A stretch of DNA of 39,273 nucleotides, taken from assembly GCA_012838435.1 (NCBI GenBank), contig DUPH01000307.1:1-39273 (forward strand), in the 5' to 3' direction. Source of the stretch: Lentisphaerota bacterium (GTDB taxonomy: Bacteria; Verrucomicrobiota; Kiritimatiellia; RFP12; UBA1067). This document shows positions 3,240 through 30,896 of the stretch, piece after piece. Each line of letters begins with the position of its first letter. Position 1 is the first letter of the stretch. The notes beneath the pieces were generated by a model, which worked only from the letters and a program-made list of their open reading frames with translations, was not told the DNA's origin and searched no databases. The position numbers were made by a program, and so were the translations under genes.

Positions 3240-3322
3240 GCACTGCTCTGCTGTTTCACGCGAAGGCGCGAAGGTTGGAGGGCGAGTGTCCCCACGAGCC
3301 GCCTTCCGCTGTGCGGAAGGAT
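3240..3322 (+). repeat. Dispersed hairpin repeat, family C
   Basis: An 83-bp block that runs from GCACTGCTC through a TTCACGCGAAGG segment to the hairpin CCTTCCGC-TGT-GCGGAAGG (3302-3320). Related copies are at 10083-10169 (reverse), 10408-10455 (3' half only) and 25740-25798 (diverged). The segment GGCGAGTG...CACGAGCC can pair with two tandem G/A mismatches, and this is kept in more than one copy. Confidence 0.75.
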
Positions 3323-3373
3323 GGGAGGGACGAGCGTCGCTCGTCCGCGGGCAAGCAGACGCTTGCCCCTCCC
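3323..3373. repeat. Double-hairpin repeat, family B
   Basis: The outer inverted ends GGGAGG (3323-3328) and CCTCCC (3368-3373) enclose two perfect hairpins. One is GGACGAGC/GCTCGTCC with loop GTC (3328-3346). The other is GGGCAAGC/GCTTGCCC with loop AGAC (3349-3368). A related element is at 10480-10522. Confidence 0.8.
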
Positions 3374-3531
3374 TGCGCTTCGCAAGCCCGATGGCAAGAG
3401 TGGAGGGTGGCATCTGGGTGGTGCGCAAAAATGGGAAACGTTGTGGCCTTTGTGCCTTTGTGTGAGGTTGAATTGGGTTGCGGGCTTTGCCCGCATTAGT
3501 TGCTACGTCGGCAGAGTCGGATAATCTGAAC

Positions 3532-10234: not shown

Positions 10235-10297
10235 AGTGATAGGGATGTGCGAAGGATCATGCGTTTCTGGTGAAAAGGGGAGCAAAGAGTCGGGAGC
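10235..10297 (+). repeat. 63-bp dispersed repeat, copy 1
   Basis: Runs from AGTGATAGGGATGTGCG to GAGTCGGGAGC. A nearly identical reverse copy lies at 29601-29662, with only a few substitutions and a 1-bp indel. Confidence 0.85.
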
Positions 10298-10338: not shown

Positions 10339-10368
10339 GTGGCACGGGCATCTTGCCCGTGTTCCATG
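10339..10368 (+). repeat. Half copy of family A repeat
   Basis: Contains the left end GTGGCA and the first hairpin CACGGGCA-TCT-TGCCCGTG (10343-10361). The second hairpin and the TGCCAC end are absent. It is followed by three 9-mers of GACCTGATT type (10380-10406). Confidence 0.75.
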
Positions 10369-10479: not shown

Positions 10480-10522
10480 GGGAGGGGCAAGCGTCTGCTT
10501 GCCCGGCGGCGCATGCGCCGCC
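10480..10522. repeat. Family B double-hairpin repeat
   Basis: A left end GGGAGG is followed by GGGCAAGC-GTCT-GCTTGCCC (10485-10504) and an 18-bp palindrome GGCGGCGC-AT-GCGCCGCC (10505-10522). The first hairpin is the family B second hairpin with the loop reversed. Confidence 0.7.
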
Positions 10523-10529
10523 CATTTGA

Positions 10530-10634
10530 GCGTTGAAAGTTGGGCGTTGGGCGTTAAAAGTTTTTTAACTCTGAACGCTGAACGTCGAACTCTGAACTCT
10601 GAAGTCGAAAACTCCTAAATCCTAACTCCTAAAT
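10530..10634. repeat. Array of 15 in-register heptads
   Basis: Fifteen consecutive 7-mers with no register slip. They begin GCGTTGA, AAGTTGG, GCGTTGG, pass a T-run near 10561-10566, continue as TGAACGC, TGAACGT, CGAACTC, and end as CCTAAAT, CCTAACT, CCTAAAT. The first and middle parts are imperfect reverse complements around the T-run, so a long imperfect hairpin is possible. A sister array is at 29677-29760. Confidence 0.85.
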
Positions 10635-10641
10635 CCTCCTT

Positions 10642-10669: not shown

Positions 10670-11943
10670 TACTCGTGCCGCAGCGCGGTGAGAGGATCGA
10701 GCTGCGCGGCCTTCCATGCCGGGTGCGTCCCGAAGGTGATTCCCGTGATGACGGAGACCGCCAGCGCGACAATCAGCGATTCGGAGGTCACCACGGCCTT
10801 GAGACCGGTTTCGCCGCCCATGCGTGAAATCCATTCGGCGGCAGCGGCGGTCGCAATACCCAGTCCGGCACCGAGCCCGCCGCCGATGGAGGTCAGCAGC
10901 ACCGACTCGGCGAGGAACTGCCAGAGGATGTCGCGCTTGCGTGCGCCCAGCGCACGCCGCACACCGATCTCGCGCGTCCGCTCGAAGATGTTGGCGAGCA
11001 TGATATTCATGATGCCGATACCGCCTACCAGCAGGGAGATCGCGGCGATTGATGTCATCACCACGGTGAAGATGCGTTGCGTGCGCTGCGCGCTTTGCAG
11101 TAGCTCGTAAGGGACTTGCACCTCGTAGTCGACTTGCGCATGTGTCTCGCGCAGGTAGGTGCGCAGTCGGCCGGCTGTGCTGGGAATCGCATTGACGTTT
11201 TTTGCCGCGAGATAGAGGTAATCGTAATCCACCCGCTCCGCCATGCCGCGCCCCATCCGGACAGTGATGCCGCCCCAGAGAGACGTGGCCGTCTCCAACG
11301 GCATGCAGACGATGTTGTTGAGTTCGAGTTGCCCGCCGATGCGACCGCCCCCCGGACTCTCCATCAATCCCACCACGCGGAAGGAGGCGTTGCCGATGGC
11401 AATGGTTTGGCCGATGGGATCGCGGTGGCCGAAGAGTCGACGCGCGGCCTTGACGCCGACCACGCAGATCGGGTCAAGGATTTTGCCGTCGGTCGGCGCC
11501 AAAAAGCGGCTGCGTCTGTCCACCAGCCGACAGCGCGTCACCTCCAGAAAGTCTGGCGTGGTCGCGATGGCTTTGATGTCGGTGGATGCCTGTCCCAGAA
11601 AGATTTCCCGCCGCACTTCCATGACTGGCACGAGCAGGCGCACATTTTCGAAAACGGCGGCGATGTGCTCGACATCGCGCTGCGTGATGCCGTAGCGCTG
11701 GGTGTACGAACGGGTCGTCTGCGTCACGTTGCCTTCAGCCGGCTTCACCGAACGCAGGATGATGTTGTCGACACCCTGCGATTCGATCTGATGCAGGGCT
11801 TCGCGTCGTCCGCCCTCACCGATGGCCAACATAGCCACGACTGCGGCGATACCCAGCACAATGCCGAGTGTGGCCAACAGCGATCGTACCAGATGCCGCG
11901 TCAGACTCGCATAGACAGTCCGGGCCATTTCCAGCAGGTTCAT
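10669..11943 (-). CDS. MacB/FtsX-type ABC transporter permease
   Basis: A 424-aa inner-membrane subunit of a type VII (MacB-like) mechanotransmission ABC exporter. It has one N-terminal membrane segment (about 20-42), then a large periplasmic MacB core domain (about 45-270), then three C-terminal segments including SLLVGGIGIMNIML. The signature REIGVRRALGARKRDILWQFL follows, as in MacB and LolC/E. It overlaps its ATPase partner by 4 bp (ATGA-type junction) and is the last gene of the cluster. No MacA-like adaptor gene is adjacent. The substrate cannot be told from sequence; export of a lipoprotein, peptide or lipid-linked envelope component would fit the family. Confidence 0.88.
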   Translation of the reverse strand: MNLLEMARTVYASLTRHLVRSLLATLGIVLGIAAVVAMLAIGEGGRREALHQIESQGVDNIILRSVKPAEGNVTQTTRSYTQRYGITQRDVEHIAAVFENVRLLVPVMEVRREIFLGQASTDIKAIATTPDFLEVTRCRLVDRRSRFLAPTDGKILDPICVVGVKAARRLFGHRDPIGQTIAIGNASFRVVGLMESPGGGRIGGQLELNNIVCMPLETATSLWGGITVRMGRGMAERVDYDYLYLAAKNVNAIPSTAGRLRTYLRETHAQVDYEVQVPYELLQSAQRTQRIFTVVMTSIAAISLLVGGIGIMNIMLANIFERTREIGVRRALGARKRDILWQFLAESVLLTSIGGGLGAGLGIATAAAAEWISRMGGETGLKAVVTSESLIVALAVSVITGITFGTHPAWKAAQLDPLTALRHE

Positions 11944-21108: not shown

Positions 21109-21478
21109 CGGACAACTGGGCAGGGCGGTGGGAAGTAATGAGGCGCTAAGGTTTTTTGGGGGGCAGGGGCGAGGTTTGTTTACTACGAAACATACGGAAT
21201 ACACGAAAAGGCACAGCACTGATTTTGTGTAGTTCATGGTTTAGGTTTTAACGTAATGTGGCACGGGCATCTTGCCCGTGTTTCATGGGCGAGACGCCCA
21301 TGCCACTAGGGGTTTTGCAAGAGCCTCCCCTGTTAAGAATTTCCGGCTCATGCGGTGAATGTCTTGCCAAGCACCGCATTATCGATTGGTAGGCTTGCAA
21401 CCGGCGGCGGATCAGGTAAAATGAATGGCTCAAAAACAGCTTGCGGAAGGCGCGGGCAGAATACAAGGACGCAGAGAC
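21109..21478. other. Gene-free gap with one family A repeat
   Basis: Between dciA and ilvE. It contains G-rich low-complexity sequence (about 21150-21175), an AT-richer stretch and the family A element at 21258-21330. No promoter could be assigned with confidence. An in-frame extension of ilvE to 21425 lacks family support. Confidence 0.6.
21258..21330 (+). repeat. Family A two-hairpin repeat, right arm retained
   Basis: The core 21258-21306 runs from GTGGCA to TGCCAC with hairpins CACGGGCA/TGCCCGTG and CATGGGCG/CGCCCATG (loop AGA here). The right outer arm AGGGGTTTTGCAAGAGCC follows directly. The left outer arm is missing. Confidence 0.85.
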
Positions 21479-22519: not shown

Positions 22520-22531
22520 GGAGTTAGTAAG

Positions 22532-22559
22532 TAGGATTTAGGAGTTAGGATTTAGGAGG
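22532..22559 (+). repeat. Four heptads that include a ribosome binding site
   Basis: TAGGATT, TAGGAGT, TAGGATT and TAGGAGG are consecutive. The last unit contains GGAGG at the right distance from the GTG at 22566. The reverse complement of the first three units is present at 10612-10634. Confidence 0.8.
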
Positions 22560-23719: not shown

Positions 23720-23813
23720 CTCGTGGGGGCGCTCGTCCGTCGGCGCTTCGCAAGGGTAAGGCCGCCTCTTCGGGGCTGTGACTCCGCGCACTGACCGCGC
23801 CGGATTCCCGATG

Positions 23814-23848
23814 AACGCTCAACGTTCAACGCTCAACTTTCAAGTTCA
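23814..23848. repeat. Five heptads (AACGCTC type)
   Basis: AACGCTC, AACGTTC, AACGCTC, AACTTTC and AAGTTCA are consecutive, the same unit type as at 10196-10216 and the complement of that at 25809-25836. Confidence 0.75.
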
Positions 23849-23946
23849 TTTGCCCGTCCTTGCTCTCACTCTTTCAACACGGTGTGAGCCTGATGGATGG
23901 ACTTGGACGGCAATAGGGCGGTCTGCGGCGTCTCGCCGTACCTTTT

Positions 23947-25798: not shown

Positions 25799-25808
25799 TA
25801 TAACTTGG

Positions 25809-25836
25809 GCGTTGAACGTTGAACGTTGAGCGTTTC
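25809..25836. repeat. Four heptads (ACGTTGA type)
   Basis: GCGTTGA, ACGTTGA, ACGTTGA and GCGTTTC are consecutive. The preceding TATAACTTGGGCG phrase is also found, with one change, before the array at 29677. Confidence 0.75.
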
Positions 25837-26240: not shown

Positions 26241-26341
26241 AGGGGTTCTGCAAAACCCCTCGTGGCATGGGCGTCCCGCCCATGAAACACGGGCAAGATG
26301 CCCGTGCCACGCCTGCAAGCAAAGGGTTTCGCAAGAACCTC
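26241..26341 (-). repeat. Family A two-hairpin repeat with both outer arms, reverse
   Basis: The core 26262-26310 is the reverse complement of 30799-30847. It is flanked by the outer arms AGGGGTTCTGCAAAACCCCT (from 26241) and AAAGGGTTTCGCAAGAACCT (to 26340), which are imperfect reverse complements of each other. It fills most of the 279-bp gap 26209-26487. The rest of that gap (26342-26487) is AT-richer than its surroundings and shows no supported gene. Confidence 0.88.
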
Positions 26342-29600: not shown

Positions 29601-29662
29601 GCTCCCGACTCTCTGCTTTCCTTTTCACCAGAAACGCATGATCTTCGCACATCCCTGTCACT
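29601..29662 (-). repeat. 63-bp dispersed repeat, copy 2 (reverse)
   Basis: Reverse complement of 10235-10297 with a few changes. As at the first locus it is directly bordered by heptad DNA on the AGTGA side. The gap 29446-29953 contains this copy, the heptad array and an AT-rich stretch (29760-29850), but no gene. Confidence 0.85.
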
Positions 29663-29676
29663 TGCCTATAACTTGA

Positions 29677-29760
29677 GCGTTAAAAGTTGAGCGTTGAGCG
29701 TTAAACGTTTTTAACTCAGAACGCTGAACGTCGAACGCTGAACTCTGAAGTCGAATACTC
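29677..29760. repeat. Array of 12 in-register heptads
   Basis: Twelve consecutive 7-mers, from GCGTTAA, AAGTTGA, GCGTTGA through a T-run (29708-29712) to GAACGCT, GAACGTC, GAACGCT, then AATACTC. It matches 10551-10613 unit by unit apart from a few units, so the two are copies of one element. Confidence 0.85.
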
Positions 29761-29859
29761 CTTGTCTATAACTTACACGATCAAATTTATCCTCATTTAC
29801 ATTCCCGTGCGAAGCGCGGGCGGCGGGCTAACCGATTACATTTTCTCACCAATCGCGGG

Positions 29860-30751: not shown

Positions 30752-30767
30752 CACGCAGACAGATAAC

Positions 30768-30870
30768 AGGGGCTCTTGCAAACCCCTTGCTCGCAGGTGT
30801 GGCACGGGCATCTTGCCCGTGTTTCATGGGCGGGACGCCCATGCCACGAGCGGGGGGGGCAAGGCCCTTA
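30768..30870 (+). repeat. Family A two-hairpin repeat with both outer arms
   Basis: The left arm begins AGGGGCTCTTGCAAACCCC at 30768. The core 30799-30847 has hairpins CACGGGCA-TCT-TGCCCGTG and CATGGGCG-GGA-CGCCCATG between GTGGCA and TGCCAC. The right arm (30848-30870) is diverged, with a G-run. It lies between the outer-membrane protein gene and the superoxide dismutase gene. Confidence 0.88.
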
Positions 30871-30896
30871 ACAAGCTGGAAAGAAAGGATGAGATC

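Follow-up and report, generated by a model that had tools for sequence, protein, structure and literature searches.

Putative RAYT-type REPINs nested within the terminal inverted repeats of a predicted DDE-type MITE in a Lentisphaerota genome

REPINs and REPs of the GTAG class are known as components of RAYT systems (Bertels & Rainey 2011, PMC3116915; Di Nocera et al. 2013, PMC3733652), and in the verrucomicrobium Opitutus terrae most GTAG-20 REPs carry GTGG instead (PMC3733652). The repeat described here resembles these systems in its inverted short palindromes with a tetranucleotide foot, in its high copy number and in the presence of a RAYT gene flanked by the same REP (PMC3116915, PMC3733652). 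It differs from them in that many of the REPINs lie inside the terminal inverted repeats (TIRs) of what appears to be a DDE-type MITE and would travel with it, in that the spacer is 3 nt long, and in that the local RAYT has an in-frame stop. On the MITE side the closest relative is MITEPye1 of Paracoccus yeei, a short non-coding element of 159 bp with 18-bp TIRs resembling those of IS1182-family insertion sequences (IS), 4-bp direct repeats and a long hairpin fold; the accessible text of that report (PMC11578231) gives one to three copies per chromosome and mentions no REP cargo, whereas here there are more than 40 copies with a REPIN interior. A physical association of an IS with REPs, as seen here, is also described for ISPpu9 in the REPs of Pseudomonas putida, but ISPpu9 reportedly inserts into REPs (PMC8450116), whereas the REPIN described here lies within the IS end or the MITE. 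Finally, the RAYT genes of P. putida and P. fluorescens have REP-derived long TIRs, which like the present element combine a degenerate REP with an unrelated stem-loop and occur hundreds of times (PMC3733652); those flank tyrosine transposases, whereas the shell described here is apparently that of a DDE transposase with target duplications. In the open-licence literature we found no account of a REPIN carried within a DDE MITE. In other words, the components are known, and the composite looks new.

The window, i.e. the whole stretch of DNA analysed, is 39,273 nucleotides long and corresponds to contig 192 of a genome of 4.0 Mb in 449 contigs (G000). Whole-genome figures for G000 are pattern counts, the contigs themselves having been read for a part of it. 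Two full copies of the element, one truncated copy and one lone hairpin lie in the window:

30769..30869, plus strand: complete 101-bp element, a predicted REPIN-carrying MITE (alignment to the 101-bp family consensus)
30765..30768, unstranded: left target-site duplication AACA (sequence; exact 4-bp duplications in the family)
30870..30873, unstranded: right target-site duplication AACA (sequence; exact 4-bp duplications in the family)
30769..30786, plus strand: left terminal inverted repeat, with a 1-nt deletion relative to the consensus GAGGCTCTTGCAAAACCCC
30787..30798, plus strand: linker, consensus TTGCYTRCAGGT
30799..30821, plus strand: REP 1, with GTGG foot, 8-bp stem and TCT loop
30825..30847, minus strand: REP 2, inverted, with GTGG foot, 8-bp stem and TCC loop in the minus-strand reading
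30848..30869, plus strand: right terminal inverted repeat, degenerate (GAGCGGGGGGGGCAAGGCCCTT)
26241..26341, minus strand: second full copy of the 101-bp element, in the opposite orientation and without an intact target duplication
21258..21327, plus strand: truncated copy, predicted REPIN core and right arm only
10339..10361, plus strand: solo REP 1 (lone first hairpin), without arms, among a string of other hairpin repeats

All four places had been pointed out in an earlier, sequence-only reading of this DNA, and they are present as described there, far above chance in comparison to reversed controls. The boundaries 26241-26341 are unchanged, while 30768-30870 has been corrected to 30769-30869. 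The copy at 21258 does keep its right arm only (21258-21327), and what had been taken for a half core at 10339-10368 is a lone first hairpin that ends at 10361. Owing to the degenerate arms of the 30769-30869 copy, its AACA duplication was identified by hand.

The consensus of the 101-bp unit, obtained by aligning genomic copies, reads GAGGCTCTTGCAAAACCCC - linker TTGCYTRCAGGT - GTGGCACGGGCATCTTGCCCGTG - TTT - CATGGGCGGGACGCCCATGCCAC - GA - GGGGTTTTGCAAGAGCCTC. The 19-bp TIRs (GAGGCTCTTGCAAAACCCC) enclose a 49-nt core of two hairpins, laid out as 23 + 3 + 23 nt, i.e. two inverted REPs, each with an 8-bp stem, separated by a 3-nt spacer. RNA folding of the element gives z-scores of -7.1 to -10.0. 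The cruciform-like fold suggested earlier is possible, but the favoured, lowest-energy single-strand fold pairs REP 1 with REP 2 into one long hairpin rather than two. No Rfam family was matched in the window. The peptide named in the sequence-only reading is frame 3 of the core, and a literature search found no paper with its motif GRDARAT. With gene calls covering a part of the genome, the window copies are apparently intergenic, and the REPs beside the RAYT gene of locus L053 (see below) are read in frame. The 30769-30869 copy lies between a Gcw_chp gene and a Fe/Mn superoxide dismutase gene, both having the same reading direction. Different intergenic regions also have in common dispersed arrays of ~7-nt units of the AACGTTG/AGCGTTG and CTCCTAAATCCTAA types (window 10520-10641, 22520-22558, 23809-23850, 25799-25834 and 29667-29762), and a further dispersed repeat, GATCATGCGTTTCTGGTGAAAAGGGG..., is found at window 10255-10297 and 29601-29643 as well as beside elements in L026 and L057.

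The copy number was estimated by pattern matching in G000. The first hairpin has 224 matches at up to 3 mismatches (0 for the reversed control), the arm 138 at up to 2 mismatches (1 when reversed) and the general REP pattern 367 at up to 1 mismatch (0 in the control). Beyond the window copy, about 39 strong matches to the 101-bp consensus were listed in this genome, and 42 elements have two good arms.

As the working definition of a MITE we used a non-coding element of 70-300 bp with TIRs of 15-30 bp. The present unit is 101 bp long, has 19-bp TIRs and contains no transposase gene. It is conspicuous that 19 of the 42 two-armed elements of G000 are flanked by target duplications of exactly 4 bp and a further 6 of the 42 by duplications of exactly 5 bp (25/42 in total), whereas the chance expectation for 4-bp duplications is 0.73 matches, with a maximum of 5 across 2,000 shuffles. 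The same tendency is seen in the relatives (4 bp in 20/45; 4 or 5 bp in 22/45). In other words, the target duplication has a fixed length of 4 bp, sometimes 5 bp. The comparison of empty and filled sites, proposed in the sequence-only reading, gave clear examples. In the related genome G028, the unit at L154:9478-9668 has AGTC on either side and the near-identical L149 has a single AGTC; in G034, the 101-bp element at L159:9503-9603 duplicates GGCG in comparison to two empty copies on the same contig. Less exact empty sites are found in G000 (L063, with ACAA, versus L046; L018 versus L107/L043), where the counterparts are in dispersed repeats. The earlier description of the repeat as a dispersed, structured, mobile element was right, and none of the three outcomes named there as refuting it came about: compensatory changes (see below) and empty sites exist, and the copies do not stem from one segmental duplication. 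Target duplications of 4 bp together with empty sites are the signature of DDE transposases and are not expected from HUH/Y1 single-strand transposition. The outer arms are best described as the TIRs of a DDE insertion sequence of IS1182/IS5-like type, which makes the unit a putative MITE. An autonomous partner with the same TIRs was found in relatives (L146 and L234), and the G000 bin has IS ends only.

The cognate IS of G028 (L146:3695-5315) is 1,621 bp long and has perfect TIRs, with the arms 1.6 kb apart. Its transposase of 396 aa matches DUF772 and DDE_Tnp_1 (Pfam, with scores of 37.6 and 35.7 bits that exceed the cut-offs). The best NCBIfam match, IS1182, scores 96 bits and is below the family cut-off of 270 (IS5_4 scores 64 versus 140), hence we use the term "IS1182/IS5-like" only. 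The second complete IS, in G034 (L234), has a transposase that is 83% identical; no target duplication is visible at either of these two complete copies. Fragments occur in G001, G030 and G037. All five genomes with a close relative of the transposase are among the 7 out of 41 that hold at least 10 TIRs (p = 3e-5), and IS relatives further removed within the family (46-50% identity) show similar ends, e.g. GAGGTAATTGCAAAACC.

A protein search found no gene for this transposase in the window's genome bin. Eight contigs of G000 begin with an IS end of ~100-127 bp (end A in four of them, end B in the other four), and these ends align to both ends of the relatives' IS. Two A/B contig pairs have a common 4-bp duplication (AACT, AACC), as expected if a multi-copy IS had broken the assembly at these points. 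At its 3' end, the IS of the relatives consists of a TIR, a GC-rich palindrome and an inner TIR-like copy. In the G000 IS end the REPIN is found in the position of the palindrome, so that end B practically amounts to the 101-bp unit. This points to a MITE derived from one end of the IS, where the direction could have been from IS end to MITE or the reverse.

The inner layer has a different character. From its foot, each hairpin consists of GTGG, an 8-bp stem, a TCY loop and the returning stem. The foot palindrome is of the GTAG type and occurs in high copy number (GTGG, 367 copies), and two inverted REPs form the hairpin of the core. The search for compensatory changes, likewise proposed earlier, gave a clear answer. 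In 29 hairpins from beside the RAYT homologues (see below) every stem cell was paired (100%), with 84 double changes, which beats 500 out of 500 shuffles and every slid control; the hairpins were chosen as perfect stems, so that the evidence is in the double changes and not in the percentage paired. The stems are apparently kept by compensatory change, and we regard the question of covariation as settled.

The sequence-only reading had also suspected a RAYT/Y1-type transposase, and the search for one was successful. G000 contains five Y1_Tnp-like genes, and the RAYT gene at L053 (contig 172) has the same GTGG hairpins directly upstream and downstream. Its product matches the NCBIfam model REP_Tyr_transpos (NF047646; 82.5 bits versus a cut-off of 80, with TGA read as Trp) and PDB entry 4er8 (TnpA-REP), and the motifs NHVH (HUH) and EYYD (catalytic Tyr) are visible. 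The reading frame is not intact, as it has an in-frame TGA at codon 162, and the REP-flanked RAYT may be inactive. Along L053 1-830 the arrangement is REP-RAYT-REP; the TGA stands at an expected Trp, and the downstream REPs continue in frame into a DNA-methylase-like ORF (VDFIIGNPPF). Homologues of this RAYT are present in 38 out of 162 genomes of the order. Matching hairpins were found on both sides of the gene at 19 of 22 homologue loci, counted where both flanks were present, as opposed to 0.2% of control windows, and 56 of 67 perfect stems near the homologues have TCC or TCT loops. The core is accordingly classified as a predicted RAYT-type REPIN. No Y1_Tnp match was found in G034 despite its 237 REPs. 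This genome is 93% complete and also has tandem REP arrays, five copies at 34-bp spacing (L293 ~10769-10961, L294 ~3304-3502).

The two layers are separable. REPs of this type are scarce or absent in the TIR-rich genomes G030, G037 and G001. The counts are 40 REPs versus 4 TIR matches in G007, and 237 REPs versus 160 TIRs in G034. REPs of G000 also occur without arms, either solo or in strings with other hairpins. In one recurrent string of this genome REP 1 is followed by GGCGGCGTGAAACGCCGCC and GGACGAGCGACGCTCGTCC hairpins (L044:8116, L047:620, L067:6913, L089:3306, L100:4657, L103:17464). The TIRs, on the other hand, bound several other interiors. In G028, a 175-bp shell without REPs (L149, L152, L154, L331, L342) has an interior of CAGAAGTCAGAATACAG-like repeats and mostly 4-bp target duplications, and short 42-bp shells also have no REP; no REP-free shell was found in G000. 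A 121-bp shell of G028 carries a different, unrelated REPIN (GTGGTGCAGGCGTCTCGCCTGCA, inverted, with a ~27-nt spacer) in at least five copies, and a 134-bp shell of G000 with the same TIRs carries three REPs (H2-H1-H2):

121-bp shells with the GTGGTGCAGGCGTCTCGCCTGCA REPIN, G028: L150:13144-13264, L326:379-500, L327:213-334, L330:129-250, L336:222-342
134-bp three-REP relatives: L033:1-127, L040:6878-7011, L045, L047, L104 and L286 (G000); also L169, L170 and L173

Since other REPINs and other cargo are found in these shells, REPINs probably entered the shell more than once.

We consider it very probable that the element is a composite of two independent, nested systems, a MITE shell moved by a DDE enzyme and a RAYT-type REPIN carried in it. 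The sequence-only reading had treated the repeat as a single element; its mobility stands, and its arms and core now fall into two systems. The DUF772/DDE transposase of an IS1182/IS5-like IS would recognise the 19-bp TIRs in trans and its insertion of the unit would duplicate 4 bp, sometimes 5 bp, of the target. The interior is a REPIN of the kind that goes with a RAYT (HUH/Y1) enzyme, and REPINs and the IS also exist apart from each other. The REPIN lies where the IS ends of the relatives hold their own palindrome, and end B of the resident IS carries exactly the 101-bp unit; the MITE most likely derives from a single end of an IS, after the sub-terminal palindrome had turned into a REPIN. 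The pattern of TIRs, target duplications and empty sites, the cognate IS, the covariation of the REPs, the REPs beside the RAYT and the better conservation of the core than of the arms are observations, and from them we infer which enzyme moved which layer, and when. Against this explanation it counts that the transposase gene is not in the window's bin, that the two complete IS copies of the relatives show no target duplication, and that the link to an intact RAYT is weak today (the in-frame TGA; REPs of G034 without a Y1_Tnp match).

The layers also differ in their conservation. In the 42 G000 elements the number of substitutions per site is 0.087 in the arms and 0.12 in the linker, versus 0.005 in REP 1 and 0.0135 in REP 2, i.e. 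the divergence of the REPs (~0.009) is about tenfold lower than that of the arms (Fisher p ~1e-30). The arms were the search key, which should bias the sample towards conservation of the arms and not of the core. Some loci were fetched by REP 1 similarity, which inflates the conservation of REP 1; REP 2 and the one-arm set are less affected and safer. In the one-arm set the REP divergence is 0.011 and 0.021, and 45 out of 71 have perfect REPs. Two control shells of G028 show the opposite pattern, with the interior more diverged than the arms (0.086-0.12 vs 0.02). In the 121-bp family of G028 the REP stems are, by eye, seemingly better kept than the spacer; in its 101-bp family, where two subfamilies are mixed and linker and spacer are counted, the interior is not lower (arms 0.074, interior 0.129). 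A constraint on the core is thus demonstrated for the window's own genome only. The core may be kept intact by selection on the hairpin or by homogenisation driven by recombination or by the RAYT.

The first of these possibilities has a stronger form, in which the core is a host-selected RNA or DNA structure (a terminator, an mRNA-stabilising hairpin or a protein-binding site) that was spread by an old MITE and is conserved because it is functional for the host. It would account for the tenfold lower divergence of the REP core, for the very stable folds and for the location of the window copy between two genes of the same direction, but homogenisation could equally give the conservation, no Rfam family is matched, and the distribution in relatives is patchy. 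We regard host selection as rather unlikely, and note that it is compatible with the composite explanation and not exclusive of it.

The same difference in divergence could mean that the core is younger than the arms, i.e. that a site-specific RAYT inserted the REPIN separately into each older shell, as the existence of REP-free 42-bp shells in G028 might also suggest. This is improbable: the linker and the insertion point are common to all 101-bp copies, G000 yielded no REP-free shell, and the linker, directly beside the core, matches the arms in divergence (0.12), which argues that core and linker entered together.

An account without any DDE enzyme, in which all 101 bp form one large REPIN with a RAYT as its sole mover and with the arms as an outer part of the RAYT substrate, fits the presence of a REP-flanked RAYT in G000 and of REPs without arms. 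Nevertheless, we find it very improbable, and a RAYT is not likely to have moved the whole unit. Clean 4-bp target duplications and empty sites are unexpected for HUH/Y1 enzymes, and the same TIRs bound both a DDE IS and REP-free units (the G028 175-bp family). Moreover, G034 is rich in the unit yet has no Y1_Tnp match, and the two repeats are unequally distributed, TIRs without many REPs in G030 and G037 and REPs without many TIRs in G007. The simple RAYT-only account was rejected on these grounds. The spread of copies by segmental duplication in one lineage, which has repeat similarity only in its favour, is refuted by unrelated flanks with individual target duplications, by empty sites and by copies in several families of the order, and we give it practically no chance.

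If the composite explanation is correct, such two-transposase composites may be recurrent. A REPIN would occupy the palindrome slot of an IS end, the DDE enzyme would carry the unit to new sites and genomes, and a process specific to REPs (selection or RAYT-driven homogenisation) would keep the REPIN intact as the shell decays. The same shell holds at least two unrelated REPINs (with 3-nt and ~27-nt spacers) and a three-REP version. For us this generalisation is close to an even call, leaning slightly against. REPINs are usually held to rely on one RAYT that is inherited vertically, and to stay within one lineage. The same REPINs in a DDE-transposon shell would have a second route within and between genomes, which could explain REP-rich genomes without a detectable RAYT. 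The arms, moreover, are a built-in control for the decay of unconstrained sequence, and together with the tenfold lower divergence of the REPs this makes the question "are REPs selected or selfish?" measurable in natural sequence.

The element is not confined to the window's genome. Exact matches to the core-arm junction were found in the metagenome-assembled genomes UR.bin27 and UBA6015 (both labelled Verrucomicrobia) and AS15tlH2ME_36 (Lentisphaerae) and in one Neomarinimicrobiota bin; UR.bin27 is 96-100% identical to the window's genome across long aligned parts, which most likely places the host in the PVC superphylum. In G002, a 97% relative, the copies at the two loci checked are orthologous and shared, not polymorphic. 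The copies of L160 differ from the G000 consensus at 6-7 of 101 sites. Genomes from different families of the order carry elements that are ~94% identical, which suggests that the shell has moved horizontally. Plasmid and phage records gave no match to the element, and the TIR was not found in viral contigs. There are, however, 20 IMG/VR viral stretches (L306-L325) that have the GTGG REP pattern without this TIR, and in some of them (L322, L324) the REPs are arranged as REPINs.
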